The position numbers were made by a program, and so were the translations under genes. A stretch of 64,000 nt of DNA, from NCBI GenBank assembly GCA_018902545.1, contig JAHIQM010000010.1:62001-126000 (forward strand), read 5' to 3'. This stretch comes from Pseudomonadota bacterium (GTDB lineage: Bacteria; Desulfobacterota; Desulfovibrionia; Desulfovibrionales; Desulfomicrobiaceae). Below the pieces are notes generated by a model. It searched no databases. It worked only from the letters and a program-made list of their open reading frames with translations, and was not told the origin of the DNA. Numbering within the stretch: position 1 is the first letter of the stretch; every line of letters starts with the position of its first letter. Below, in pieces: positions 5,193-24,642 of this stretch.

Positions 5193-6668
5193 TTAATGGC
5201 CCATCATTTGTTCGATGGCATCGGGCTTGTCATGGAGCGCGAAGCGATCGATGAGCGTGGCGCTGGCCTTATTGAGACCGACGACTTCCACTTCGGTTCC
5301 CTCGCGACGAAATTTGAGGACAACCTTGTCCAGGGCATTGACGGCGGTGATGTCCCAGAAATGGGCGCGGCTGACATCAATGCGCACTTTTTCAATGACC
5401 TCTTTGAAATCAAAAGAGCCAATAAAGCGCCCTGCCGAAGCAAAAAACACCTGCCCGACCACACGATAAGAGCGCATCCGGCCTTCGTCTTCCGACTTCC
5501 ATCCGACATGCAGCAGCATCCCGACCTTGTGGGCGAAAAAGAAGCCGGACAAGAGCACTCCGACAAGCACCCCTTTGGCAAGGTCATGGGTGGCGACCAC
5601 CACGACCACTGTCGCGAGCATGACCGCGCTGGAACATTTCGGATGTTCTCTCAGGTTTCTGATAGAAGACCAGCTGAATGTGCCGATGGCGACCATGATC
5701 ATGACCGCGACCAGCGCCGCCATGGGGATCATGGCCACCCAGTCGCCAATAAATACCACCATCAAGAGCAGGAACACGCCTGCGGCAAGGGTTGAGAGTC
5801 GCCCGCGGCCGCCTGACTTGATGTTGATTACTGACTGGCCGATCATGGCGCATCCAGCCATGCCACCCAGAAACCCCGAAGCGATATTGGCGATGCCCTG
5901 GCCGACGCACTCACGATTTTTGTTGCTGCCAGAGTCGGTGAGGTCATCGATGATGGAGGCCGTCATCAAGGATTCAAGAAGACCAACCACGGCCAGCGTT
6001 GTGGACACGGGCAGAATGATGCGCAGGGTGTCCCAGTTCAAGGGTACCTCTGGCAGCAGGAAGATCGGAAGGCTGTCTGGCAGTTGCCCCATGTCTCCGA
6101 CTGTCCGGATATCTAGGTCAAGGGCGATGGCGGCCGCCGTCAAGACGACAATGGCCACAAGCGGCGAAGGGACTGCTTTGGTGATGTACGGGAAGAGGTA
6201 GATTATGGCCAGACCGGCGGCTACCATCGGGTAGACCACCGGGTTCACGCCGATCAGTTCGGGCAACTGGGCCATGAAGATTAGAATAGCCAGGGCGTTG
6301 ACAAAGCCGGTGATGACCGAGCGTGATACGAAGCGCATCAGTACCCCCAGGCGAAACGCTCCGGCGAGGATCTGCAATACTCCTGTCAGTATTGTCGCAG
6401 CCAGTAGATATTGGAGGCCATGCTCCCTGACCAGGGTGACCATCAGAAGCGCCATCGCTCCCGTGGCGGCCGAGACCATCCCTGGCCGTCCGCCGGTGAA
6501 GGCAATGACTGCCGCGATGCAAAACGAGGCATAAAGGCCGACTTTGGGGTCCACGCCCGCGATGATCGAAAATGCGATGGCCTCCGGGATGAGCGCCAGC
6601 GCGACCACGACGCCTGCGAGCAGGTCCTTTTGAATATTGGAAAGCCAATTCAAGTGTAAAGATTTCAT
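5193..6668 (-). CDS. SulP-family inorganic anion permease with STAS domain
   Basis: 491 residues. About ten to twelve hydrophobic helices fill residues 15-380, beginning with the family signature [25 protein letters not shown]-terminal STAS domain follows (about 395-485; [28 protein letters not shown]). SulP proteins move sulfate, bicarbonate or other anions across the inner membrane. Sulfate uptake would suit a sulfate reducer, but substrate cannot be read from sequence. The start has no obvious Shine-Dalgarno site. First gene of a SulP-Usp operon. Confidence 0.9.
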
Positions 6669-11949: not shown

Positions 11950-13188
11950 TCAGGACGGCTCGGAGGCGCCACGTCCTGCCAGGTAGCCGGAGGACAGGGC
12001 TGCCTGCAGGTTGAAGCCGCCCGTGTCGGCGTCCATGTCCAGCACTTCGCCAGCCAGGAACAGGCCCGGGCAGACCTTTGACTGCATGGATTTGGGATTC
12101 ACCTCGGACAGTTCCACGCCGCCGGAAGTAATGATGGCCTCACGCAGAGGGCGGTATCCGCTGACCGTGAATCGCAGTTCCTTGAGCCACAGACGCAGTC
12201 GTTTGCGTTCCTCGGCCGAGATCTGGTGCGCGGGCTTGTCGCCGGCCAGCCGGGTCTGTTCCAGACAGACGGGGATGAGCTTGGGGGGCATCAGACCGCG
12301 CAACAGATTTTCCAGATGCATCTTGCCGTGCTCGCCCAGATCGCGCAGCAGGCGCGCGTCGAGTTTGGCCGGGTCCAGGGCGGGTTTCAGATCGATGAGG
12401 ATTTCCGTTTTCTTGCCCTGGTCCACAGCGCGCACGGCGGCCTTGCTCAGGGTCAGGATGAGGGGGCCGGACAGGCCGAAATGGGTGAACAGCATTTCGC
12501 CCATGTCCTCCCCGGCCTTTTTGCCGTCAACGCGCAATTCGACTCGCACGTTTTTGAGCGAAAGGCCCTGCAGCCTTTGCGCGGTGTCCCCGGCAGTGAC
12601 CAGGGGAATGAGCGCCGGGGCGATGGGCGCGATGGCGTGCCCCAGGCTTTTGGCCAGTCCATAGCCGTCGCCGGTGGAGCCTGTCGCCGGGTACGAGGCC
12701 CCCCCCGTGGCCAGGATGATCCGGTCCGCCTTGAGTGTCTGCGAGCCGAAGGCCACCTCGAAGCCGTCGTCCGCACGCGAAATGCCGCGTACTCGGCAAC
12801 CGGTGCGAATAGTCACTCCCTTGTCGCGGGCATGACGGACGAACGCGTCCACCAGATCCTGGGCGTTGTCGCTGACGGGAAACAGGCGCCCCCCGCGTTC
12901 TTCCTTGACCGCAATGCCCAGACTCTCGAGCAGATCGATTGTTTCCCGGGTGAAAAAATGGGACAGGGCCGGGCGCAGGAAGCGGAAGTTTTTACCGAAA
13001 TGAGACAAAAAATCGTCCAGCGGCGCGGTGTTGCCAATGTTGCCCCGACCTTTGCCGCAGATGCGGAGCTTGCGGGCCGGGCGGTCCATGCGTTCGAGCA
13101 GGGTGACGCGTGCGCCCCTGGACGCAGCTGTGGCCGCGGCCAGGAGTCCGGCAGGTCCGCCGCCGATGACGATGACATTATGGTTCAT
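11950..13188 (-). CDS. BaiN/YhiN (HI0933)-family flavoprotein
   Basis: 412 residues. The N-terminal FAD-binding fold has VIVIGGGPAGLLAA, followed by the family motif position GKGRGNIGN (commonly GRCN; here Gly replaces Cys). Later motifs are RIILATGGASYPATGSTGDGY, VTAGDTAQRLQGLSLKNV and the C-terminal ITSGGVELSEVNPKSMQSK...GLFLAGEVLDMDADTGGFNLQ, all typical of this family. The start follows AAGGA. Reported members reduce bile acids or have unknown redox roles, so the substrate is open. It appears to be a single gene. Confidence 0.88.
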   Translation of the reverse strand: MNHNVIVIGGGPAGLLAAATAASRGARVTLLERMDRPARKLRICGKGRGNIGNTAPLDDFLSHFGKNFRFLRPALSHFFTRETIDLLESLGIAVKEERGGRLFPVSDNAQDLVDAFVRHARDKGVTIRTGCRVRGISRADDGFEVAFGSQTLKADRIILATGGASYPATGSTGDGYGLAKSLGHAIAPIAPALIPLVTAGDTAQRLQGLSLKNVRVELRVDGKKAGEDMGEMLFTHFGLSGPLILTLSKAAVRAVDQGKKTEILIDLKPALDPAKLDARLLRDLGEHGKMHLENLLRGLMPPKLIPVCLEQTRLAGDKPAHQISAEERKRLRLWLKELRFTVSGYRPLREAIITSGGVELSEVNPKSMQSKVCPGLFLAGEVLDMDADTGGFNLQAALSSGYLAGRGASEPS

Positions 13189-13284
13189 GGGGTTCCTTCA
13201 AAAAGCACATTCTGAAGGGTATGAGGCCGGATGTAAAGGCGCGCGGGAGCTTTTGGCCGTCTGCACCGTGAATTTTAAGGAAGG

Positions 13285-13307
13285 GCCCGCCCGAAAAACG
13301 GGCGGGC
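13285..13307 (-). terminator. Hairpin after Usp gene
   Basis: Perfect 9-bp stem GCCCGCCCG / CGGGCGGGC with a five-base loop, 17 bases past the Usp stop; minus-side tail is CCTTCCTT, so only moderately terminator-like. Confidence 0.6.
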
Positions 13308-13323
13308 GACTCACTGGGAAGAA

Positions 13324-13812
13324 TCAATTGTCGGGTCTTGCGACCTTGTTGTCGAAGAAAACGCAGGAGTCATCATCGTCGTAGCGTACCACGAGCACGG
13401 AGCATTGTGCGTGACGGACTACCTTGGCCGTGTTCGTGCCCAGGAGGTAGTCTTGAAGCTTCAGGCGATGGGCGGGCATGATGATGAGATCCACGTTTGT
13501 TTTTTCCGCCATGCGCAGAATCCTTCTGTAGATGGAGCCCTGGCCGACCAGGTAGTGGACGTCGATATCCTCGGGGACATAGACTCCGACCAGTTCGTGC
13601 AGCATGTTTTCGGCCTCCACGACGATCTTGTCTCCGGCGTCCGGCGGAAAATAATTGGCCACGATGGGCATGCCCATGTCGGGCACGACAGTCAGCACGT
13701 AGAGCGATGCATGGTACAGGCGGCAAAGCTCAATGGCCTTTTCCAGGCCCATGCACCGGGCTCTGTCATCGGTTTCCTGAAGATCAATGGGAACGAGTAT
13801 CCTTTTGTACAT
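13324..13812 (-). CDS. Universal stress protein, single UspA domain
   Basis: 162 residues with one complete UspA fold: MYKRILVPIDL, then LYVLTVVPD, VDLIIMPAHR, LLGTNTAKVVRHAQCSVLVVR. The ATP-type glycine motif is weak (PAHRLKLQDYLLGTN in place of G-2-xG). The start follows GAGGGC. It begins 14 bases after the TRAP permease stop, last gene of the TRAP unit. TRAP loci commonly end in a Usp (TeaD of Halomonas regulates its transporter), so a transporter-linked role is likely. Confidence 0.9.
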   Translation of the reverse strand: MYKRILVPIDLQETDDRARCMGLEKAIELCRLYHASLYVLTVVPDMGMPIVANYFPPDAGDKIVVEAENMLHELVGVYVPEDIDVHYLVGQGSIYRRILRMAEKTNVDLIIMPAHRLKLQDYLLGTNTAKVVRHAQCSVLVVRYDDDDSCVFFDNKVARPDN

Positions 13813-13826
13813 AGATGCCCTCGCGT

Positions 13827-16052
13827 TTATTGTTCATGCTTGAAATATTTCTGGAAAATTTGCTTTCGCTTTTTTGTGTCCAGTTTCTGCCAGGCTACCA
13901 GCGAGTAAAAGATCACGACACCAAGTACCTGCGTTTCATGGCGGTCCAGGGGGATGTGCTCCGCGAAAAAACCGGGCCGGAAGGTCGAGGCCGAAACCAG
14001 CAGCAGGAAGAGGCGCTCGATCCAGTTACAGCTGCGGACCAGCCAGCCCTGGACGGCCGAAGCGAAGGCGAACATGGCGGTCAGCCCGGCAAAGAAGATC
14101 CAGGCGATGTGTACGTAGTCGTCCAGCCAGATGATGCCGCCCGTGCTGGTTACCCCTGCAATCATCAACAGGTCGGTGTTGAAGAGGAAAATAAAGGGCA
14201 GGATGGCCGTGCGCATGTCGTACGAGAAACCCTGCAGGCCGGTTTTGATCGGGTCGGCGCGAGCGATGGCCGCCCCGGCGTAAGCGGCGAGCCCAACGGG
14301 CGGGGTGTCGTCCGCGAGAATGCCAAAGTAGAAGACGAACAGGTGCGCCGCGATGAGGGGGAAGACGAGTCCAGCGTCGGCGCCGAGCTGTACGATGACC
14401 GGGGCCGTCAGCGTGGCCATGATGATATAGTTGGCGGTGGTCGGCATACCCATGCCCAGGATCAGGCAGGTCATGGCGGTAAAGATGAGCATCAGCACCA
14501 CGTTGCCCATGGAGATGGTGTCGATGAGGGTGATGAACCGGCCGACCAGGCCGGTGATGGTCACCACGCCGACAATGATTCCGGCTGTGGCCGTGGCCAC
14601 GCCGACGGAGATCATGTTGCGCGCGCCCATGATCAGACCGTTCCAGACATCTTTGAGTCCTTCCCAGGCAGCCAGGGCGATGAAACGCGGTATGTCCACA
14701 TTTGGATCAAGGGTCCCGGCGCGGCGATGGACGCCCAGGGTCAAAAAGGCGACAATCGGGCGCTGCACGAACATGATCACAGCCAGGCTCTCGATGGCCA
14801 GCAGGGCCGAGGTCACGGGCGAGCGGCGCAGGACGACCAGGAAGAAGAGCAGCACGCCAAGCGGGATGATGAAATGGCACCCGCGCAGGAGAGTTCGGAA
14901 GAAGGGCGGCAGCTGGCTGCGTGGGATGGCCTTGATGCCCATTTTCATGGATTCGATGTGCACCACCCAGAAAAGGGCCATGTACGAGATGACCGCTGGC
15001 AGGACGGCGGCGCGAACTACGTCCAGATAGGGGATGCCCACGATCTCGGCCATGATGAAGGCGGCGGCACCCATGACCGGAGGCATGAGCTGACCGTTGG
15101 TGGAGGCGGCGACCTCGACGGCTGCGGCCTTGTAGCCGGGAAATCCGACTTTTTTCATCAGGGGAATGGTGAAGGTGCCCGTGGTCACCGTGTTGGCGAT
15201 GGACGAGCCCGAGACCAGTCCGGTCAGGCCCGAGGCCAGGACTGCGGCCTTGGCCGGACCACCGCGAAAGGTGCCGAGCGCCGAGAAGGCCACATCGATG
15301 AAATATTTGCCGCCGCCGGCGCGATCCAGCATGGCGCCGAACAGTACGAAGAGAAAGACGAAATCCGTGGATACGCCGAGCGGCACGCCGAAGATGCCGG
15401 TGGTGGTCAGGTACATGTCGCTGATGATGAAATCCAGCGGCACGCCGCGATGGCGCAGCACTTCGGGCAGGTAGGGGCCAAATATCGTGTAGGCCAGGAA
15501 AATGCCGCCCAGGATGGTCAGGGCCGGGCCCAGCGAGCGTCTGGCCGCCTCCAGCAAGAGAGCAATGGTGATGATGCCCATCCAGATGTCCAGCTGATTG
15601 GGCAGGCCCTGCCTGGTGATGAGTTGATCGTAATCCCACCAGATGTACAGGGCTCCGGCCGTGGCCAGGGCCGCAAGCACCATGTCGTAATACGGGATGT
15701 AGGTACGGATGGAGCGGCGGGCGAAATTTGGCAGGACCATCTTGGTCCATTTGACCCACATTGGCTGGCTGTGCTGCTTGTAGGCCGGGTAGGCCAAAAA
15801 GGCCAGACATACGGCAAAGGCGAGGTGCCAGGCACGGGCGATGTGCGAATCCATGGGCTGGTAGGCCACGTACAGTTGAAACAAGGACCAGGCCAGGCAA
15901 AGAAAGGTGATTGTTCCGGCGGCGAAGCGGTTGGACGGTTCCCTTGCTCCGGCCTCGACCATGGCGACCATATCTTCGGCCGCCTTGCGCATGCTGGTGT
16001 CGGCGGGGGCTTGCTCGTCGCCGGACTGTTTGCGGGGATCCTGTTCTGCCAT
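13827..16052 (-). CDS. TRAP transporter permease, fused 4TM/12TM subunits (TAXI type)
   Basis: 741 residues. A soluble N-terminal tail (about 1-45) is followed by about 16-18 hydrophobic segments: the DctQ-like small subunit region (about 45-200) fused to the DctM-like large subunit (about 210-690). Family signatures include GSSIANTVTTGTFTIPLMKK and NGQLMPPVMGAAAFIMAEIVG in the first half, and LGMGMPTTANYIIMATLTAP later. It imports a carboxylate- or amino-acid-like solute using an ion gradient with the TAXI receptor encoded just upstream. The start follows AAGGA. Confidence 0.94.
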   Translation of the reverse strand: MAEQDPRKQSGDEQAPADTSMRKAAEDMVAMVEAGAREPSNRFAAGTITFLCLAWSLFQLYVAYQPMDSHIARAWHLAFAVCLAFLAYPAYKQHSQPMWVKWTKMVLPNFARRSIRTYIPYYDMVLAALATAGALYIWWDYDQLITRQGLPNQLDIWMGIITIALLLEAARRSLGPALTILGGIFLAYTIFGPYLPEVLRHRGVPLDFIISDMYLTTTGIFGVPLGVSTDFVFLFVLFGAMLDRAGGGKYFIDVAFSALGTFRGGPAKAAVLASGLTGLVSGSSIANTVTTGTFTIPLMKKVGFPGYKAAAVEVAASTNGQLMPPVMGAAAFIMAEIVGIPYLDVVRAAVLPAVISYMALFWVVHIESMKMGIKAIPRSQLPPFFRTLLRGCHFIIPLGVLLFFLVVLRRSPVTSALLAIESLAVIMFVQRPIVAFLTLGVHRRAGTLDPNVDIPRFIALAAWEGLKDVWNGLIMGARNMISVGVATATAGIIVGVVTITGLVGRFITLIDTISMGNVVLMLIFTAMTCLILGMGMPTTANYIIMATLTAPVIVQLGADAGLVFPLIAAHLFVFYFGILADDTPPVGLAAYAGAAIARADPIKTGLQGFSYDMRTAILPFIFLFNTDLLMIAGVTSTGGIIWLDDYVHIAWIFFAGLTAMFAFASAVQGWLVRSCNWIERLFLLLVSASTFRPGFFAEHIPLDRHETQVLGVVIFYSLVAWQKLDTKKRKQIFQKYFKHEQ

Positions 16053-16107
16053 GAAAAATCCTTAAGAGTCTATGGGTGGGAAAAGCAGTCTTTCACGTCA
16101 AACAAGA

Positions 16108-16131
16108 CAAAGGGGCCGGATGGCCCCTTTG
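16108..16131 (-). terminator. Intercistronic hairpin between TAXI receptor and permease
   Basis: Perfect 10-bp stem CAAAGGGGCC / GGCCCCTTTG with a GGAT loop, followed by TCTTGTTTG on the minus strand, 12 bases past the receptor stop. Likely lets more receptor than permease be made. Confidence 0.7.
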
Positions 16132-16142
16132 CGATCTTCAAT

Positions 16143-17102
16143 CTACATCCAGCCTTTTTCCTTGTAGTACTTCTCGGCGCCAGGATGCAGCGGGGCGGAG
16201 AGGCCCTGCAGCATTTCCTTGGGGTCGAGGACGCGGAACGCGGCGTGGGAGCCTTTAAGCTCATCGAGGTTCTCGAACACGGTCTTGACCATGTCGTAGA
16301 CCACTTCTTCGGCCACGGCTTCGTTGGTGATGACGGTGGCGGTCACGGCGTAGGTCTCGACGTCTTTGTCGATGCCCTTGTAGGTGCCAGCCGGAATCGA
16401 GGTCATGATGTAGTAGGGGTGCTCAGCCACGAAAGCCTTGAGGGCGTCGGAATTGAGCGGGATCATGTCCAGGTCGACGGACTGGGCCGGCTCTTCGATG
16501 GCTGCGCTGGGGTTGCCGACGGTGTAGAAGAACGCGTCGATCTTCTGGTCAACCAGGGCGCGGGAGGCTTCGGCCTGCTGCAGGGCCTCGGAGCTGAAGT
16601 CCTTGTTGAAGTCCAGGCCGTAGATGCGCAGGACGTCTTCGGCGTTGCCGCGCTGTCCGGAGCCGGGGTTGCCGATGTTGACCCGCTTGCCCTTCAGGTC
16701 GGCTACGGTCTTGATGCCGGCGGCCTTGTTGGTGACCAGCATAACGGTTTCTGGATGCATGCTGAAAACGCTGCGCAGACCCGCGAGCGGTTTGCCTTCC
16801 CAGTCAGCCGCGCCGTTGAAGCCCTGCCAGTTGCGGTCGGACTGAGCCACGGCGAAATCGAACGCGCCGCGGTCAATGGCGTTGATGTTGAACACCGAAC
16901 CGCCCGTGGGCCTGCCGATATAGTTGTACTTGTCGCTTGCGTGCTTGTTCATCATGTTGCTGATCTGCAGGGCGACCTGGTAGTACACGCCGGTGATGGC
17001 GGCTCCGCCGAACAGGATGTCCTGCTTGGCCATGGCCTGGGGAGCGGACACTGCAAGTCCGAGGACAACGACGAGGGCGAAAAACCATTTTCTTCCAACC
17101 AT
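16143..17102 (-). CDS. TAXI-family TRAP transporter solute receptor
   Basis: 319 residues with a signal peptide (RKWFFALVVVLGLAVSAPQAMA, cleavage about residue 25) and the TAXI pattern near the N-terminus (ILFGGAAITGVYYQVALQISNMM). Later parts (FDFAVAQSD, VNIGNPGSGQRGNAEDVL) are typical of this periplasmic receptor fold. The ATG at 17102 is preceded by GGAGG and is better than an upstream in-frame start. Structurally known relatives bind glutamate/glutamine or other carboxylates; the ligand here is unknown. The start is 90 bases past the M20 peptidase stop on the same strand. Confidence 0.92.
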   Translation of the reverse strand: MVGRKWFFALVVVLGLAVSAPQAMAKQDILFGGAAITGVYYQVALQISNMMNKHASDKYNYIGRPTGGSVFNINAIDRGAFDFAVAQSDRNWQGFNGAADWEGKPLAGLRSVFSMHPETVMLVTNKAAGIKTVADLKGKRVNIGNPGSGQRGNAEDVLRIYGLDFNKDFSSEALQQAEASRALVDQKIDAFFYTVGNPSAAIEEPAQSVDLDMIPLNSDALKAFVAEHPYYIMTSIPAGTYKGIDKDVETYAVTATVITNEAVAEEVVYDMVKTVFENLDELKGSHAAFRVLDPKEMLQGLSAPLHPGAEKYYKEKGWM

Positions 17103-17191
17103 GAGCACCTCCAACAAAGAATTGTTACGATTGAGGAAATGAAAACTCCACGAACTGTATCCGCCTTATATGCTGAAGAACATTCGCTCTG

Positions 17192-18385
17192 TCAAATTGC
17201 GCACGATGATGGATTTTCAAGCCTTGTTCCGTGATTCCAGAGGGCTGCGATGGTCGCTGCGGTGAGGGCGGCCCGTTCCATGAGCGAGTCCTTGAGAATA
17301 AACTCCAGATCGCTGTGATCAAGGTCGCCCACGGGACCCAGTCCGTCCAGGACAGCAACGCCGAGTCCGGCGATGAAATTGGCGTCGGACACGCCGGAAC
17401 GCAGTTCCTCGGGTAGATCGTAGCCAAAGATTTGCGCTTGGGCGCGGGCGATGGCGTACAGGTGACGGTTTGCTTGCGACTGCGGCATGGCTGGCCGTCC
17501 GGATTTGACGGTCAGGGTCGCGGATGTGCCGGGAATCAGGGGTTCGGCGACAACCCGGGCCAAGTCCCGCTCCAACCGCTCTTGGCCCGCAGGATTCAGG
17601 AAGCGGGCGTCGAGGGCCGCCGTAGCCAGTTCCGGAACGGTGTTGGGGCCGATGCCGCCCTCCACCTGGCCGACATTGAGGGTGATCTCGCGGCCGTCGT
17701 TCAGTGCTTCCAGAGCGATGATCTTGTGCGCCAGTTCGAGAATGGCGCTGGCCTTGGCCCCGCCCTTGGCCGCATGCCCGGCCCGGCCGCGCACCGTAAG
17801 CTCCAGGCCGAGCCTTCCCTTGCGACCGGTGACCACGTCCTTGTTCGCCCCGCCTCCCTCGAAAACCAGGGCGGCCAGTGCGCCGTCACACATCTCCTCG
17901 ATCCATGGCCGGGACGCGTGCGAGCCGATCTCCTCGTCCGAATTGCACAGCACGGTGACCGGGATCTCTTTTAACAGACCCAGGTGCGCCAGGGCTTTCA
18001 ATGCGTAGACCGCGACCACGAGGCCGCCCTTCATGTCGTAGACACCCGGTCCAAAGCAGCGCTCCGGGTCTTCCCGGAACGCGGTGAAGCTGGTGTCCGC
18101 CGGAAAGACCGTGTCCATGTGCCCCACCAGCACGATGCCCTTGCGCCCCTCCGCAGCCGGGAGGGTCATGGCCTGGACCATGTTCCCGTTGTCCGCGAAG
18201 GGCAGAATGCGCACCTCGGGCAGGAAGCCGCCAAGGACGCCTGCCATTTCCCCGGCCATGCGGTCGAGGCCCGGCTTGTTGCGGCTGCCGCTCTGGATCT
18301 CCACCAGACGCCGCAACAGGCCGAGGGCTTCCCGGCGGAGTGGTTGGAGATATGACAGGATCGTGTCGTGCATGGTCGGAATCAC
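17192..18385 (-). CDS. M20-family zinc peptidase/deacylase (CPG2/ArgE-like)
   Basis: 397 residues, a two-domain amidohydrolase of the carboxypeptidase-G2/ArgE/DapE group. Metal and catalytic residues are in place: H89 and D91 (GHMDTVF), bridging D117 (GVYDMKGG), general base E151 and E152 (SDEEIGS), and a late His in GDLDHSD. The dimerisation domain begins near RKGRLGLELTVRGRAGHAAK. The start GTG overlaps the stop of the aminomutase-like gene (GTGA); an ATG four codons later is the alternative. It would cleave a dipeptide or N-acyl amino acid. Third gene of the ATP-grasp/aminomutase operon, which suggests it acts on that pathway's product. Confidence 0.9.
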   Translation of the reverse strand: MIPTMHDTILSYLQPLRREALGLLRRLVEIQSGSRNKPGLDRMAGEMAGVLGGFLPEVRILPFADNGNMVQAMTLPAAEGRKGIVLVGHMDTVFPADTSFTAFREDPERCFGPGVYDMKGGLVVAVYALKALAHLGLLKEIPVTVLCNSDEEIGSHASRPWIEEMCDGALAALVFEGGGANKDVVTGRKGRLGLELTVRGRAGHAAKGGAKASAILELAHKIIALEALNDGREITLNVGQVEGGIGPNTVPELATAALDARFLNPAGQERLERDLARVVAEPLIPGTSATLTVKSGRPAMPQSQANRHLYAIARAQAQIFGYDLPEELRSGVSDANFIAGLGVAVLDGLGPVGDLDHSDLEFILKDSLMERAALTAATIAALWNHGTRLENPSSCAI

Positions 18386-19953
18386 TTTTCGTACTTGGCG
18401 AACCCGAAATCCTGCCGGGCATATTCCTGCGGTTCGGGGTCGGGATAGGTGACCTGCTCCCCGCTCCAGGGTTTTTGCATCTTCACGTGACCGTGGCCGT
18501 GTTCAAGCACGTTGGTGCGGTGCAGCGGAATCTTGCCTCCGGCCGTGGCGATGTAGCGCGGGATGGCGTCACCGGAGATGTTGCCGTACATGCTCTCGAC
18601 GATGCTCTGCCCCACGGCCACGGGCACGCGCAGGTGCTTGAACTGCGGGTTGCGGTAGCTGCAGTTGAACACATAGTAGGGCCTTACGCAGGCTTCCTGG
18701 ATGGTCTCGCACAGCTTCCACATCTTCACGCTCGAATCGTTGATGCCTTTGAGGAGCACGGCCTGGTTCATGACTGCGGCCACGCGCTTGGAGATGGCCC
18801 GGAACGCGGCCTTGGAAACCGGCGTGATCTCCTGGGCGGTGTTGATCTGTGTGACTACGCGCAGGGGTTTTTTGTCGCTGCTGGCCTCCAGGATGTCGAG
18901 GAGCTCATTGTCGATGCGTTGCGGTGTGGTCACGGGGATGCGCGTGCCCAGACGCTTCATGCGCACATGTTCGATGGAGTCGAGCTCGCAAAGGAGCCAC
19001 TGGAGCATGGAATTGGGCAGGACCAAGCTGTCGCCGCCGGTCACGAGCACGTCGCGGATCTCCGGGTTCGCGCGGATGTAGTCCAGGGCCTCGCCGTAGG
19101 CCTCCTTGCTGTAGATGCGGTCCTTGGCCCCGATGTGCGCCAGGCGCAGGCAGTGGGTGCAGTACATGGCGCACATGTTCGTGGCTTTGATGGTCACCAC
19201 CCGTGGGTAGAACTGGTCGATGAGCCGGGCCGGGGAATGGTCCGCGGCCACGGGGGGGATCTCGACGCCGGCGTTGTCGACCATCTCGCCGGTGGGCACG
19301 GACTGCAACAGGACAGGGTCATTGATCTGACCCGGCAGGATGAGGCTTGCGTAGTATGGGGTCAGACGCATGCGGTAGGTTTTGGTGACCCGCAGCACAT
19401 CCTCAACGGCCCTTTCGGGCAGATCCACGACCTTGGCCAGGGTCTCGACGTCTTCGATGGCGTGGCGCAGCTGGCCGGAATAGGAATTCCAGTCGTCCTC
19501 GCTCATGCCCAGGACATTTTTTATGCGTTGCTGGTTTTCAAGCATCCGGTCCCAGACCTCGATGCCGCTGGGCGCTTCCAGGGGATGGCGGTCCAGGTAC
19601 TCGGCGACCCGGCTGCGGGCCGCATCGACAATGGGCCGGGCCTGCCCCACGCGGCCGCCCACGGTGACCCGGTGCTCGTCGAGCCGTTCGTGTTTGGCGG
19701 CCAGGGCTTCCAGGCTCTGCCGGGACAAGCCCAGCTGTTCCGGCGTCCAGCCCTGGATTTCATGAAATCTCGCCAGCGCGGCAAAAAGATCGACGATGGA
19801 ACCGGTGAGGTTCCCGGTTTCGGCCTGCCTGAAGAGTTCGGCAGCTGCCCCGCGATCTTCGTCCGAGGGGGCGCCGTCTTTTTTCACCGTGAACAATGCG
19901 GCAAAAAGATCCGCCGTGAACGTGTCCATAGTGTACGAAGCGGTGGTGCTCAT
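18382..19953 (-). CDS. Divergent lysine-2,3-aminomutase-like (KamA-family) radical-SAM enzyme
   Basis: 523 residues. After an extra N-terminal region (about 1-150) the sequence follows lysine 2,3-aminomutase: DWNSYSGQLRHAIEDVETL, YRMRLTPYYASLI, DPVLLQSVPT, then CAMYCTHC (Cys261, 265, 268) for the 4Fe-4S cluster, VLVTGGDSL, TPQRID and VRPYY. The PLP lysine is probably K474 in AGGKIPL. By eye, the two Asp residues of clostridial lysine aminomutase that hold the substrate epsilon-amino group (D293, D330) align with S432 and T470, so lysine is unlikely to be the substrate. The start overlaps the ATP-grasp stop by 4 bases. It should move an alpha-amino group to the beta carbon of an unknown amino acid. 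Confidence 0.85.
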   Translation of the reverse strand: MSTTASYTMDTFTADLFAALFTVKKDGAPSDEDRGAAAELFRQAETGNLTGSIVDLFAALARFHEIQGWTPEQLGLSRQSLEALAAKHERLDEHRVTVGGRVGQARPIVDAARSRVAEYLDRHPLEAPSGIEVWDRMLENQQRIKNVLGMSEDDWNSYSGQLRHAIEDVETLAKVVDLPERAVEDVLRVTKTYRMRLTPYYASLILPGQINDPVLLQSVPTGEMVDNAGVEIPPVAADHSPARLIDQFYPRVVTIKATNMCAMYCTHCLRLAHIGAKDRIYSKEAYGEALDYIRANPEIRDVLVTGGDSLVLPNSMLQWLLCELDSIEHVRMKRLGTRIPVTTPQRIDNELLDILEASSDKKPLRVVTQINTAQEITPVSKAAFRAISKRVAAVMNQAVLLKGINDSSVKMWKLCETIQEACVRPYYVFNCSYRNPQFKHLRVPVAVGQSIVESMYGNISGDAIPRYIATAGGKIPLHRTNVLEHGHGHVKMQKPWSGEQVTYPDPEPQEYARQDFGFAKYEK

Positions 19954-21377
19954 TTCGTGTTGTCCTCGCTAGCTGCCTTTGTTTGCGCGTGTTTGCGGAT
20001 GGAGCCGTTCAGTTGTTCGATGCCTTGGCGGATGTCCTCTTCGAGCATGCAGCGGTCGCGAGCCACGGCCACGACCCGGCCCAGAAAGGTACCGGGCATG
20101 ACGGCCTGTCTGCCGCCGACGTGCTCGACGACGATGACGCCGTGCTCCTGACCGTGGCACACGACCTGGCGGAAAAGAGTGCGCTCATCCTCGTCCACGG
20201 GGACGAAGTGGTCGGTCTCGGCCTCGTGTTCGAGCTTGAAGTTGTAGGTCCGCCAGCAGATCCCGTCCAGGGCGTCCTTCATCTCCATCTTGTTGTCCGG
20301 AAAACGATCGAACATCACCGCGTGATACTCCAGCTCAAGCAGGCCCGGTGTTTCCGGCGGCAGGGCGTTTTCGAGGGTGCAACACATCTCCATGGTCGTG
20401 CCCTGCTTGCGGGCGTTGACCTCCACGAAAAAGATCCGGCCTTCTGCGTCGACGATGTAGTCGCAGCCGAAGATGCCGCGATAGCCGCTGCGGCCCATGA
20501 TCTGGCCGATCCTGCGCGTGATCTCGCGCAGCTGTTGCTGAATGGCCTGGGGCTGCTCCGAAGGGAAGGTCGAGCCGCGAAACTTGTTGCCGTCCTGGAT
20601 CTCCTGGTCCGCCGTGGCGGCGATGAACACGTCCTGGCCGTTGGCCACGATGCCGAGCACCGTGGGGTCGGCCACGTGGGGGATGTAGCGGCTGATGAAG
20701 AACTTGCCCCGCAGGTGCGCGGTCTTGGCCTCGATCTCCTCTTGGGAATGGGTCACGAAGCTGTTCACCCCGGCCGCCGAATAGGGCTGGCTGACAAAGA
20801 GACCGTCGGGCCACTCTGCCCAGAGCTCTTTGGCCGTCTCCAGCATGTGCTGGGCGTCCTGGCAGACCCTGTAGCTGATGACCGGCGCGACGTCTTTAAG
20901 GCGCTGCAGCTGGTAAAGCTTGTTGTTCCAGATGTTGGCGATGTGACCGCTGGGCCCGAGGATGCGCACGCCGGGGATGAGCGCCAGGGTCAGCTCCGGC
21001 ACGGACTCGAAGACATGGATGAAGACATGTCCCTGCTTGTCGAGAAGCTGGCGGATGAGTTCGTTGATCGTGTCCGATGCGGAGACCAGGGATGCGAAGG
21101 TGCGCGGCGGGATGCGGAAGCTGACCTTGCGGCCTTTTTCCCGGAACAGTTCACGGGCCATGGGATTGATGACCAGGGTGTTCTTGTGCGGGTAGGATTC
21201 GAGGACATCCGGCAGGATGGAAATGAAGTCGAATTTTTGTCCGTGAATTTTGGAGAGGGTCTCCTTGAAAAATTGATTCAGGCAGTCCGTCTTGATTTCG
21301 CCGATATAGAGGAAATAAAAGGTGTCCGGGTCCAGTTTGATGTCCGAAAACAGCACATCATCGTCTTCCATGAGCAT
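19950..21377 (-). CDS. ATP-grasp carboxylate-amine ligase-like protein
   Basis: 475 residues. A Rossmann-like pre-ATP-grasp part (about 1-145) precedes the ATP-grasp fold (about 150-345), with GIFGCDYIVDAEGRIFFVEVNARKQ carrying the Mg-binding E319 and N321. The C-terminal 100 residues have a barrel-like TFLGRVVAVARD. ATP-grasp enzymes join a carboxylate to an amine through an acyl phosphate. ATG at 21377 has GGAGG seven bases upstream, better than an upstream TTG. First gene of a tightly overlapping operon with the aminomutase-like enzyme and an M20 peptidase, so it may ligate the aminomutase product. Actual substrates are unknown. Confidence 0.82.
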   Translation of the reverse strand: MLMEDDDVLFSDIKLDPDTFYFLYIGEIKTDCLNQFFKETLSKIHGQKFDFISILPDVLESYPHKNTLVINPMARELFREKGRKVSFRIPPRTFASLVSASDTINELIRQLLDKQGHVFIHVFESVPELTLALIPGVRILGPSGHIANIWNNKLYQLQRLKDVAPVISYRVCQDAQHMLETAKELWAEWPDGLFVSQPYSAAGVNSFVTHSQEEIEAKTAHLRGKFFISRYIPHVADPTVLGIVANGQDVFIAATADQEIQDGNKFRGSTFPSEQPQAIQQQLREITRRIGQIMGRSGYRGIFGCDYIVDAEGRIFFVEVNARKQGTTMEMCCTLENALPPETPGLLELEYHAVMFDRFPDNKMEMKDALDGICWRTYNFKLEHEAETDHFVPVDEDERTLFRQVVCHGQEHGVIVVEHVGGRQAVMPGTFLGRVVAVARDRCMLEEDIRQGIEQLNGSIRKHAQTKAASEDNTK

Positions 21378-21484
21378 AACCGCGCCTCCACGCAACAAAA
21401 TTGGTGCCCTGCGACGCCATTGTCGCGGGCATTGTATCCGCCGGACCTACCGATTGATTCCGCAAACTGCAAATCTTAGAATTT

Positions 21485-21510
21485 CGCGTCCGCTGGTCGA
21501 AGGGGACGCG
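21485..21510 (-). terminator. Weak hairpin between small secreted gene and ATP-grasp operon
   Basis: Seven-bp stem CGCGTCC / GGACGCG with a 12-base loop, about 65 bases past the stop at 21577; no real T run. The surrounding 200 bases (21378-21576) should also hold the ATP-grasp operon promoter, which I could not pick out. Confidence 0.3.
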
Positions 21511-21576
21511 GACGAGGGACGGATCACCTGGCCCGCTTCGTCAATCCGCAAGAACTAATTTTAAGTCCTGCGCTTT

Positions 21577-21963
21577 TCAGTCCAGCTTCAGCCGCAGGGT
21601 GAGCGTTGCCGGTTTGTCGCCCGTGATGCGGTATTTGAGCCTGAACTGGTCTACGGTCACGCCCGTTCCCGGGATGTTCACGAGCCCCGAGGATTCTCCG
21701 GATTTGAGCTGCACGGGGGTGCGCAGGTCAATGGGGTCGCCTTTGACCGGGATGAGGGTCAGGCTTTCGAACTGCACCGTCGCGCCCTCGATGTTGAAGC
21801 GCAGCTTATCGATCTTGCCAAGCTTTTCGCCCACCGGGAGGGTCGCCGAAGTGTCCTGTGCGGAGAGCTGGATCGGGTCCATGGCTTTCCAGGGCCCGGC
21901 CATGACCGGGGCGGCCGACAGAATGCACAACAAAAAACTCAGCAAAAGAATGTTTTTTTTCAT
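21577..21963 (-). CDS. Secreted small protein of unknown function
   Basis: 128 residues with a clean signal peptide (MKKNILLLSFLLCILSAAPVMA, cleaved after about 22). The mature part is predicted beta-rich (IDKLRFNIEGATVQFESLTLIPVKG; VTVDQFRLKYRITG; ATLTLRLKLD), like a small beta-sandwich. No family is recognised. GGAGAA precedes the start. It is divergently arranged, 69 bases from the PAS-LuxR regulator, and could be its target. Confidence 0.75.
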   Translation of the reverse strand: MKKNILLLSFLLCILSAAPVMAGPWKAMDPIQLSAQDTSATLPVGEKLGKIDKLRFNIEGATVQFESLTLIPVKGDPIDLRTPVQLKSGESSGLVNIPGTGVTVDQFRLKYRITGDKPATLTLRLKLD

Positions 21964-22032
21964 GAAAATTTCTCCAGGACGAGTGTGTTCCGGGATACGT
22001 ACGCCGTGCAGGAGCCGTGATCAAGGGGCGGG

Positions 22033-23043
22033 ATGGTTTTGGCCGGGCTGCAGGGCGCGGTGGCAGAGCAGCAAAAGATGTATTCCCATAAGGGCGATGA
22101 GTCTTTATCTGAATTGTCCATGTCCTCTGATTCACAACAACAGCTTTGCGACCTTCAGGCCGAACTCGGAGTATTGCAGGCCCGCTTGCGGGTTCTCGTC
22201 GATGGTTCGCCTCTGGGTATTTTCTTTGACGACGCGGGCGATCAGTGCGTTTTCGTCAACACCACCTTTTGCGACATGATGGAGCTGACCGAGGCCGAGG
22301 CCCTCGGCGACGGCTGGGCCAGGACCGTGCATCCCGAAGATCTGCCTGAGCTGACGCGCGAGCGGGCCCGCTCCGTGGCCGGTGGCGCCTCCCTTTTTCG
22401 CGCCGAATACCGCTATGTCTGCCCTAGCGGGCGCACCGGCTGGGTGGAGGAGCAGACCCGGCCCGTCCACGATCCAGACGGGAAGCTGCTCGGGTACGTT
22501 GGAACGGTGGCCGAGATCAGCCTGCGCAAAGAAGAGGAGGCGCTGCGGAGTCGTCACAGCGCAATGCTGGAGGAACGGGTGCGCGAGCGCACGGCCGAAC
22601 TCCTGGCCCAGACCGACCGGCTGGGCGAGATGAACTCGGCTCTCAAGGTTCTCCTGCGGCAGCGCGAGGAAGACCGCGAAGAGCTGGAGCAGGCCGTGCT
22701 GGCCAATGTGCGTCGCCGCATCGCCCCGACCCTGGATCGTCTGGAAGGGCTTTGCCCCGGAGCCGAGGCCGGCATCCTGGTCGACCAGCTTCGCCGGGGC
22801 TTGCAGGAATTGACAAAACCTTTCTGCTATCGCCTGGCCACGGTCTGCCAGGGTCTGACTCCGGCCGAGATGCAGGTCGCGGAACTGATCCGCGAAGGAC
22901 TCGGCACCAAGGAGATCGCCGCCCGCCTCGGGGTCGGCTCCTCGACCATCGACACCCACCGCAACCACATCCGCCGCAAGCTCGGGCTTAAAGACCGCAA
23001 AAACAGCCTGCGCGCTTATCTGCTTGCCCTGGAATCGGCCTGA
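22033..23043 (+). CDS. PAS-domain LuxR-type transcriptional regulator
   Basis: 336 residues. A coiled N-terminal stretch (about 35-55) leads to a PAS domain with PAC motif (about 55-170; DGSPLGIFFDDAG, HPEDLPELTRE, GYVGTVAEIS), a long coiled coil (about 172-240) and a C-terminal LuxR helix-turn-helix (about 270-330; LTPAEMQVAELIREGLGTKEIA, then STIDTHRNHIRRKLGL). It senses something through PAS and binds DNA. The ATG at 22033 has AAGGGG; internal ATG codons have no site. Lies divergent to the small secreted gene and 100 bases ahead of pdxS. Confidence 0.9.
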   Translation: MVLAGLQGAVAEQQKMYSHKGDESLSELSMSSDSQQQLCDLQAELGVLQARLRVLVDGSPLGIFFDDAGDQCVFVNTTFCDMMELTEAEALGDGWARTVHPEDLPELTRERARSVAGGASLFRAEYRYVCPSGRTGWVEEQTRPVHDPDGKLLGYVGTVAEISLRKEEEALRSRHSAMLEERVRERTAELLAQTDRLGEMNSALKVLLRQREEDREELEQAVLANVRRRIAPTLDRLEGLCPGAEAGILVDQLRRGLQELTKPFCYRLATVCQGLTPAEMQVAELIREGLGTKEIAARLGVGSSTIDTHRNHIRRKLGLKDRKNSLRAYLLALESA

Positions 23044-23143
23044 TATGGATAAAAACTCCACATTATCTCCGCAATAAACCGCTATTGTCATTTTGCGGCC
23101 CGGCTGTTTGAACGATTCTCCAACCAAAAGCGAGGAGGACGGC

Positions 23144-24040
23144 ATGAAACAGACGCAAGGGAGCGATGAAAAGACAGTGTTGAACACGGGGCTGGCCCGC
23201 ATGTTCAAGGGCGGTGTGATCATGGATGTGGTCAACGCGGAGCAGGCTCGTATCGCCGAGGAGGCCGGGGCCTGCGCGGTCATGGCCCTGGAGCGGGTGC
23301 CCGCCGATATCCGGGCCTGCGGGGGTGTGGCGCGCATGTCCGACCCGGGCATGATCCGCGAGATCATGGCCGCGGTGTCCATACCGGTCATGGCCAAATG
23401 CCGCATCGGCCACTTCATGGAGGCCCGCATTCTTGAAGCCGTGGGCGTGGACTACATTGACGAGAGCGAGGTCCTGACCCCGGCCGACGAGGAATTTCAC
23501 ATCGACAAGCAGCAGTTCAAGGTGCCGTTTGTGTGCGGATGCCGCAATCTGGGCGAGGCCCTGCGCCGCATTGCCGAGGGCGCGGCCATGATCCGCACCA
23601 AGGGCGAGGCGGGCACGGGGGATGTGGTCGAGGCCGTGCGCCATGCCCGCGCCGTGCAGGAAGGCATCAGGCGCGTGCAGCACATGCCCGGCGAAGCACT
23701 GGTCGCCTTTGCGCGCGAAATCGGCGCGCCCGTGGAGCTTCTGCGCCAGGTGCGCGAGCTTGGGCGACTGCCAGTGGTCAACTTCGCGGCTGGCGGGGTG
23801 GCTACCCCGGCCGACGCGGCGCTCATGATGCAGCTCGGCATGGACGGGGTGTTCGTGGGCTCGGGCATCTTCAAGAGCGGCGATCCCGCCAGGCGCGCCA
23901 GAGCCATCGTGCAGGCCGTGACCCATTTCGACGATCCGCAGGTTCTGGCCCAGGTCAGCGAAAACCTCGGCGAGGCCATGTCCGGCGTCGCGGTCCGTTC
24001 TCTGGATAGCGCCCAGCAATTCGCGGGCCGGGGCTGGTGA
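23144..24040 (+). CDS. pdxS: Pyridoxal 5'-phosphate synthase, PdxS (synthase) subunit
   Basis: 298 residues, the full family length. PdxS builds PLP from ribose 5-phosphate, glyceraldehyde 3-phosphate and ammonia supplied by PdxT. Typical blocks are [68 protein letters not shown] and [11 protein letters not shown]. The two catalytic lysines are the ones in VMAKCRIGH and MIRTKGE. The start is the ATG after GAGGAGG. Its stop overlaps the pdxT start (TGATG). PLP is the cofactor needed by the aminomutase-like enzyme, glyA product and aminotransferase in this window. Confidence 0.98.
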
Positions 24041-24642
24041 TGCGCATCGGCATCCTGGCCCTGCAAGGGGCCTTTGCCGAGCATGCTCAGATGCTTTCGG
24101 CCCTTGGGACGCGGCCCGAGCTGGTGCGCAGCCCTGCCCATCTGGATGGCCTGGACGGCCTCATCCTGCCCGGCGGGGAGAGCACGAGCATGCGGCGGCT
24201 GGCAGGGCAAAACGGGCTCGACATTGCCCTGCGCGATTTCGGGAAAATTCGTCCGGTCTGGGGCGTGTGCGCGGGGCTCATCCTTCTGGCGGCCAAAGTC
24301 GAGGGCGAGGAGCCTTTTCTGGGCCTCATGGACATGTGCGTGGCGCGCAACGCCTACGGCCGCCAGCGGGAAAGCTTTGTGCATGACCTGCGTATCGAGG
24401 GGCTTGTGCCCCATTTTTCCGGGGTCTTTATCCGCGCCCCGCGCGTGCTTGAGACAGGGCCAAAGGTGGAAATCCTGGCCCGCCAGAATGGGGCTCCGGT
24501 GTTTCTGCGCCAGGGGTGTCTTTTGGCCACGTCCTTTCACCCGGAGCTGACTGGCGACGGGCGCGTGCATGGACTGTTTTTGGACGTGTGCGCGAAAGGA
24601 AGGGCGGAGGCAGGCGGCGGGGCGTTCGCGGCGCAGGAGTGA
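24040..24642 (+). CDS. pdxT: Pyridoxal 5'-phosphate synthase, PdxT (glutaminase) subunit
   Basis: 200 residues. Class-I glutaminase that feeds ammonia to PdxS. It has IGILALQGAFAEH, LPGGEST, the nucleophile Cys in GVCAGL and the His-Glu pair in SFHPEL, plus the AYGRQRESF region. Start and pdxS stop overlap as TGATG, giving coupled translation; a GTG one codon upstream is also possible. Confidence 0.97.
   Translation: MRIGILALQGAFAEHAQMLSALGTRPELVRSPAHLDGLDGLILPGGESTSMRRLAGQNGLDIALRDFGKIRPVWGVCAGLILLAAKVEGEEPFLGLMDMCVARNAYGRQRESFVHDLRIEGLVPHFSGVFIRAPRVLETGPKVEILARQNGAPVFLRQGCLLATSFHPELTGDGRVHGLFLDVCAKGRAEAGGGAFAAQE

Follow-up and report, generated by a model that had tools for sequence, protein, structure and literature searches.

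Organization of the locus

The DNA analyzed here is a 64,000-nucleotide stretch (the window) of contig JAHIQM010000010.1, whose host genome is coded G000 in our genome scans. It carries a minus-strand operon in which genes for an ATP-grasp ligase (positions 19950-21377), a KamA-like radical S-adenosylmethionine (SAM) aminomutase (18382-19953; 523 amino acids) and an M20 peptidase/amidohydrolase (17192-18385; 397 amino acids, GTG start) are transcribed in that order, followed by genes for a TAXI-family TRAP solute receptor, a fused TRAP permease and a universal stress protein (Usp). The ATP-grasp stop and KamA start codons overlap in the sequence ATGA, the KamA stop and M20 start codons overlap in GTGA, and the intergenic gaps after M20 are, in order, 74, 90 and 14 bases. 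The GC fractions by codon position (0.61/0.36/0.83 for the ATP-grasp gene, 0.63/0.42/0.83 for the KamA-like gene and 0.70/0.46/0.78 for the M20 gene) fit protein-coding DNA, so these three open reading frames are real genes. A first-pass annotation had described three overlapping genes of these kinds at 17192-21377, which the reading frames, the overlaps and the family scores given below bear out; it had ended the operon there, however, whereas the TAXI, TRAP and Usp genes follow downstream and the TAXI-TRAP transporter belongs to the set. We read the operon, with a probability of about 0.48, as a module fed by glutamate that forms an amide of a beta-amino acid and breaks it again. This reading is favored because the ligase and aminomutase genes are conserved and linked, the aminomutase lies on the glutamate side of its family, the TAXI receptor has a glutamate-type site, a hydrolase slot accompanies the pair, and the glutamate ligase BesA is the ligase's best-scoring named match.

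The ligase and its linkage to the aminomutase

The ligase gene may start at ATG 21377 (475 amino acids), which is preceded by GGAGG, or at ATG 21371 (473 amino acids). Its product scores 28.0 bits on PF02655 (ATP-grasp_3; cut-off 23.2), and residues E317, N319, R321 and K322 (numbered from ATG 21371) are invariant across 51 aligned ATP-grasp proteins; the first two are those that had been singled out earlier as E319 and N321. The predicted structure (pLDDT 93), modeled with 51 of 68 listed ATP-grasp references, matches PurK, PurT, biotin carboxylase, PylC and BesA with Z scores of 24-27, and the domain score, the Glu/Asn metal ligands and the fold together place the protein in the ATP-grasp superfamily. 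The top-scoring named amino-acid ligase models are BesA (33 bits), a glutamate ligase by its NCBIfam name, and LdmS (28 bits).

A locus scan with the ATP-grasp alignment as sole query, using one genome per species, gave 91 relatives, of which 80 were kept. A KamA gene is adjacent on the same strand in 69 of these loci, present in another layout in two (L130 and L116) and fused to the ligase gene in two (L124 and L132), for a total of 73 of 80, or 73 of the 75 testable loci once L060, L079, L082, L083 and L119, where the sequence ends 1-153 bases past the ATP-grasp gene, are set aside. A tblastn check at >200 bits finds KamA in 72 of the 80, and adding L131, in which the contig ends within the gene, brings the total to 73. 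The carriers include Desulfovibrionales, Desulfobacterales, Desulfobulbaceae, Sulfurospirillum, Arcobacteraceae, SAR324 and one Brocadiaceae bin (bins can be contaminated). In a scan of the class (348 genomes), the ATP-grasp gene (E <= 1e-30) was found in 42, the KamA gene (E <= 1e-90) in 39 and both in 38; of 62 class genomes with ATP-grasp matches, 20 had only weak ones (best E 1.1e-6) and were treated as carrying other ATP-grasp proteins. The two genes lie side by side in all 38 genomes that have both (Fisher p ~5e-45, a value that ignores kinship), with -1 to 109 bases between the matched stretches in 36 and 322 and 597 bases in the other two, and chance adjacency among these 348 genomes is rejected.

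At L195 (5532-8804), L196 (5977-8977) and L118 (7962-11104), in lineages without the KamA gene, a radical-SAM gene of the B12-binding type comes after the ATP-grasp relative. The L195 radical-SAM gene is DUF4070 by Pfam, no M20 or TRAP match was seen alongside at these three loci, and the ligases of genome G093 and of L118 have no Pfam match at E <= 0.001. The ligase seems to have switched to another radical-SAM partner in this lineage, and its association with a different radical-SAM enzyme is possibly a new pairing.

The KamA-like aminomutase

The KamA-like protein scores 238.1 bits on TIGR00238 (KamA family; cut-off 199.2). Its C261/C265/C268, R270 and K474 correspond to C125/C129/C132, R134 and K337 of lysine 2,3-aminomutase (LAM), which are the cluster cysteines, the carboxylate-binding Arg and the Lys that binds pyridoxal phosphate (PLP), and the score and the retained cluster Cys and PLP Lys confirm the earlier call of a radical-SAM aminomutase-like enzyme. 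Its predicted structure (pLDDT 85) superimposes on LAM 2a5h with a Z score of 36.6 and a root mean square deviation of 2.3 over 324 aligned residues; the weakest parts of the model include stretches near the active site (271-273 and 471-473). The protein falls below the cut-offs of the lysine 2,3-aminomutase model (TIGR03820; 291.8 bits vs 525.4) and of the arginine aminomutase model (235.5 bits vs 600).

Asp293 and Asp330 of LAM hold the lysine side chain, and the corresponding residues in the Clostridioides difficile glutamate enzyme are Lys and Asn. The window protein has S432 and T470 at these positions. The Asp/Asp pair is present in all 31 lysine-type paralogue rows (L178 and L025 being the same gene), and Lys/Asn is found in L169, the sole aligned enzyme over the cut-off of the glutamate 2,3-aminomutase (EAM) model (716 bits). 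The relatives linked to the ligase family fall into two groups. Group A comprises the window protein and its relatives (46 of 58 listed references were used in the alignment and structure work), and group B comprises L122, L123, L126, L129, the fused L124 and L132, and L171, which has exactly the same KamA part as L132. Group B proteins have Lys/Thr at LAM 293/330, keeping the EAM-type Lys, and score 571-632 on the EAM model (cut-off 650; six proteins; L171 607.7) versus 409-455 on the lysine model; their partner, whether a linked gene or a fused part, belongs to the ATP-grasp family that is also found with group A. In a tree of 41 hand-picked rows with a single EAM reference, groups A and B and that reference form one clade (support 100/99) with the lysine-type enzymes outside it, and groups A and B are sisters (94/89). 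Group A thus probably descended from a glutamate-type enzyme whose pocket has since been rebuilt, and judging from these residues and the tree, glutamate is the best candidate substrate of the window enzyme. The first-pass annotation had sketched an aminomutase that makes a beta-amino acid, a ligase that joins it to another molecule and an M20 enzyme that releases it; that outline fits the findings, but the enzyme belongs on the glutamate-aminomutase side of the family and not on the lysine side.

Other KamA-family genes lie near the pair at a few loci. In Desulfonatronovibrio/Desulfonatronospira a second, short and divergent one (372-430 amino acids, with Arg/Met at the side-chain positions) lies upstream on the opposite strand at L063 (6364-7482), L064 (from 186) and L067 (from 121); the L063 protein scores 219 bits on the EAM model. 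At L078 a second KamA (5556-6629; 357 amino acids) has Glu/Ala at these positions, and its highest-scoring model is that for arginine 2,3-aminomutase (364 of 600 bits).

The transporter and neighboring genes

The TAXI receptor gene (16143-17117, minus strand) and the fused TRAP permease gene (13827-16052, minus strand), the latter with DctM and DUF3394 domains, encode proteins that score 316.4 bits on TIGR02122 (cut-off 84.35) and 669.8 bits on TIGR02123 (cut-off 320.65), respectively. In VcGluP, glutamate is contacted by S75, Q93, E125, Y45 and Y200 among others, of which Y45 and Q93 are decisive, and the frequencies across TAXIs are 78% for Y45, 54% for Q93 and 20% for Y200 (PMC11574862). 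Compared with VcGluP, the window receptor is identical at V44, Y45, Y46, S75, Q93, H123, E125, G156 and Y200 and differs at S40, D157 and M201, and with Y45, S75, Q93 and E125 kept its site is of the glutamate type. All 24 TAXIs compared at ATP-grasp/KamA loci (the window's and 23 others, of 26 TAXI-named rows; L101 and L113_11164, 21-22% identical, were unaligned at the site and omitted) keep Y45, Y46, S75, Q93, H123, E125 and G156, these being mutually related rows, so that the residue percentages cannot be multiplied. Position 200 is Tyr in 20 of them and Phe in four, and position 201 is Thr or Val. By tblastn, TAXI or TRAP genes are present at 19 of the 32 loci with ample flanks and 26 of 80 overall, and among ten whole-genome regions examined, the seven long ones that contain the pair all had TAXI and TRAP alongside (for one of the seven, L200, the KamA gene, hidden by a shadow open reading frame, was counted from the genome scan).

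The Usp gene (13324-13812, minus strand; PF00582, 90.9 bits, cut-off 24) is the last of the six operon genes, and genes of the Usp type are also found next to the transporter at other loci. A GntR/FCD-type cluster gene (two members were scanned with Pfam) lies directly upstream at 19 of 66 testable loci. Such regulators and transporters are common in catabolic operons, and aminomutases are reversible in principle, so one might suppose that a beta-amino-acid compound is taken up by the transporter and opened by M20, after which KamA, working in reverse, yields an alpha-amino acid for catabolism. We consider this quite improbable: the ATP-spending ligase is KamA's most tightly conserved partner, fused to it in two loci, and the site of the TAXI receptor looks like one that binds L-glutamate.

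Three other features of the region were noted. The gap between TAXI and TRAP contains a terminator-like hairpin of 11 pairs (window 16132-16107, minus strand), which could result in more receptor than permease; the scan found five such sites overall, fewer than the mean of 7.5 in shuffled sequences. About 0.7 kb upstream of the operon is a divergently transcribed gene for a PAS and LuxR-type regulator (22033-23043, plus strand). About 1.7 kb from the operon are pdxS and pdxT (23093-24642, plus strand; both over their cut-offs) for synthesis of PLP, the cofactor on which KamA depends; among the 80 loci compared, the window shares the PdxS/PdxT clusters only with the Desulfomicrobium locus L060.

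The M20 enzyme and the hydrolase slot

The M20 protein scores 94.3 bits on PF01546 (Peptidase_M20; cut-off 24.6), and its highest named models are PRK07338 (243.5 of 357) and PRK06133 (glutamate carboxypeptidase; 227.9 of 349). Its closest solved relative is carboxypeptidase G2 (CPG2), and all seven metal/catalytic positions are kept, in agreement with the zinc peptidase recognized earlier; in an alignment of 45 rows that includes CPG2, six of these positions are identical throughout and the last His is present in 44, with one gap. In a tblastn recount the gene was found at 46 of the 64 loci with room for it. Absence of the gene trio from other genomes, named earlier as a ground for refutation, is not what is seen: the set is widely conserved, although M20 is not universal.

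At the Campylobacterota loci L125, L127, L128 and L136, where M20 is absent, KamA is followed by a gene for a 165-amino-acid protein resembling gamma-glutamylcyclotransferases (GGCTs); its YGSL motif and its conserved stretch RExGYxR are known from that family. AIG2_2 is matched in two of four members scanned with Pfam, weakly (best E 0.035), a relative (L150) exceeds the GGACT cut-off (27.9 > 22.8), and a search of Protein Data Bank sequences with the GGCT-like alignment gave no solid match (best E 0.18). Across 298 genomes of the order, the ATP-grasp gene (E <= 1e-40) is found in four and a close GGCT-like copy (>170 bits) in eight: all four ATP-grasp carriers have the copy versus four of the 294 others (Fisher p ~2e-7, kinship ignored). 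In two Arcobacteraceae genomes the copy lies away from the ATP-grasp/KamA pair. GGCTs attack gamma-glutamyl amides via the free alpha-amino group. If that chemistry holds here, the acyl partner of the ligase would be glutamate, joined via its gamma-carboxyl, with the beta-amino acid as amine partner; this gamma-glutamyl linkage takes two weak steps from the GGCT-like gene.

The neighbors also bear on what the ligase makes. ATP-grasp enzymes take many acceptors, PurK, PurT, biotin carboxylase, PylC and BesA all match the window ligase within ~3 Z units, and several smaller neighbor clusters (<=9 loci each) have no assigned identity. Beta-glutamate or another beta-amino acid could accordingly be built into a beta-glutamine-like amide, a cofactor, a metal carrier or a small natural product by an ATP-grasp enzyme that is no solute dipeptide ligase. 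We think this unlikely, since the commonest neighbors of the pair are M20, TAXI, TRAP, the GntR/FCD regulator and Usp, joined in Campylobacterota by the GGCT-like gene, and M20 and GGCT both cleave amides.

A proposed pathway and the evidence against it

In the module proposed here, the TAXI-TRAP transporter would import L-glutamate, as the conservation of its binding site suggests. The KamA-like enzyme, using SAM, a [4Fe-4S] cluster and PLP, would then shift the 2-amino group to C3 and so form beta-glutamate or a close acidic analogue; its fold, cofactor residues and lineage are as described above, and the substrate is what we infer from them. The ligase would spend ATP in joining this beta-amino acid to a second amino acid, a reaction suggested by its fold and conservation. 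If the Campylobacterota GGCT-like enzyme acts on the same product, that partner would be glutamate, linked through its gamma-carboxyl to give gamma-glutamyl-beta-glutamate or something similar, which is a speculative product. M20, or the GGCT-like enzyme in Campylobacterota, would split the amide once it is not needed. The purpose might be a metabolically quiet solute or a nitrogen/carbon store, and such an osmolyte or storage role is plausible if speculative.

A number of observations weigh against this proposal. The window aminomutase falls short of the EAM model (TIGR04368; 346.1 bits vs 650), on which the host's own LAM scores higher (477), and group A has Ser/Thr instead of EAM's Lys/Asn at the two side-chain positions. 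Its branch in the tree with the single EAM reference is very long (6.0), and the branch uniting groups A and B is one point short of the tool's star. The ligase is a weak match to BesA (NF042917; 33 bits vs a cut-off of 750), and a biotin-carboxylase-named model scores it nearly as high (32.1). The linkage has exceptions: L106 and L118 have no KamA in the 3.6 and 8.0 kb following the ATP-grasp gene, the ATP-grasp gene occurs without a group A KamA in G033 (a fragment) and G092-G094, and KamA occurs alone in G053. In G093, G094 and L118 the ATP-grasp gene is followed by the B12-binding-type radical-SAM gene (a call made by Pfam for G093, by NCBIfam for G093 and G094, and by eye for L118). M20 was not found at 18 of the 64 loci with room for it, and the GGCT-like gene adjoins in just four of these, the neighbor-cluster table holding no such gene beside the pair at the remaining 14; TAXI/TRAP genes are missing at 13 of the 32 loci with ample flanks. 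The host genome has two other over-cut-off TAXIs, one of which keeps V44, Y45, Y46, S75, Q93, E125 and G156 without H123 and Y200, and the other almost none of the site residues. Finally, an Rfam scan of window positions 12500-24000 at E <= 1 found no salt-linked or other known RNA element.

Because group A fails the EAM model and carries Ser/Thr, a substrate other than glutamate is possible. The same chemistry would then act on another amino acid, such as glutamine, aspartate or a neutral one, whose beta form the ligase would join to glutamate or another partner. The low scores of the window protein on every named aminomutase model and the length of the group A branch speak for this, as do Ser432, Arg434 and Arg466, invariant in the 46 aligned group A proteins, and the nearly invariant Thr470, which resemble neither the Lys/Asn of EAM nor the Asp/Asp of LAM. 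On the other hand, the tree places group A on the side of EAM, the same ligase family accompanies group B with its EAM-type Lys, the linked transporter looks glutamate-type, and Arg434 and Arg466 could stand in for the Lys as carboxylate binders. On balance another substrate appears rather unlikely, and glutamate is retained in the proposed pathway.

Beta-glutamate is a known osmolyte of methanogens (PMC1224877), and beta-glutamic acid increased with depth in two ocean profiles, where an archaeon was found to contain it at 730 mM (PMC8269262). If the proposal is true, the conserved mutase-ligase pair of sulfate reducers would give bacteria a route to beta-glutamate and yield a new end product, and a KamA family with a rebuilt side-chain site would be a test case for substrate choice in radical enzymes. 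More tentatively, the module may make a compatible solute or storage compound of a class not described before: a beta-amino-acid dipeptide (e.g., gamma-glutamyl-beta-glutamate) that a mutase and a ligase (sometimes fused) build and a dedicated hydrolase takes apart. Such a compound would be widespread among anaerobes from saline sediments and soda lakes and would be one of the bacterial sources of the beta-glutamate in marine samples. Because the genes are compact and present in cultured species such as Desulfopila aestuarii and Desulfofustis glycolicus, the hypothesis can be put to a direct test.

Comparison with known systems

This gene set is not described in the literature found, in which coverage of subscription papers is thin, and it was compared with several systems of similar parts. 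In the NAGGN osmolyte system an ATP-grasp ligase and a peptidase act around a glutamine dipeptide; no NAGGN-named model is among the matches listed for the six operon proteins (for M20, the best 25 of 41). BesA and LdmS are the best-scoring named amino-acid ligases, and the BesA structure 8yi6 matches the window ligase with a Z score of 24.3, but the ligase is far under both cut-offs (750 and 475). Published work ties eam genes to Na+ riboswitches and to the osmoprotectant beta-glutamate (PMC9337991). The window aminomutase is in the same clade as EAM, and group B keeps the EAM Lys, but the window protein has Ser/Thr for Lys/Asn and a longer N-terminal helical part; at the one locus of EAM proper that was examined (L169, 3.5 kb) no ATP-grasp-like open reading frame is visible alongside.

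The AblA-AblB product, N-epsilon-acetyl-beta-lysine, is a compatible solute in methanogens (PMC1224877). There, as proposed for the window operon, a KamA-family aminomutase makes a beta-amino acid that a second enzyme caps; the differences are that the window KamA is without the lysine Asp pair and that its partner is an ATP-grasp protein and not a GNAT acetyltransferase. The first-pass annotation had remarked on the lack of an acetyltransferase, and there is indeed none in the operon, but the genome has a separate, ordinary ablA-ablB: a lysine 2,3-aminomutase gene (711 bits, cut-off 525.4) followed by ablB (332 bits, cut-off 205.1) at G000:C1:56288-58412 (L025, L168), the only AblB match found in the host genome (G000:C1:57612-58412) being on a different contig from the operon. 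The host thus probably already makes acetyl-beta-lysine, and the trio is its second KamA system. A beta-lysine pathway that lacks AblB was rejected for the trio, whose KamA has the wrong residues and whose genome carries the real ablA-ablB elsewhere.

In pyrrolysine synthesis, PylB-PylC is a radical-SAM mutase followed by an ATP-grasp amino-acid ligase. The window operon shares this combination of mutase and ATP-grasp ligase, and PylC is among the fold matches of its ligase (Z 25.3); PylB moves carbon, not an amino group. By analogy, AblA-AblB and PylB-PylC appear to be the systems nearest in logic to the trio.

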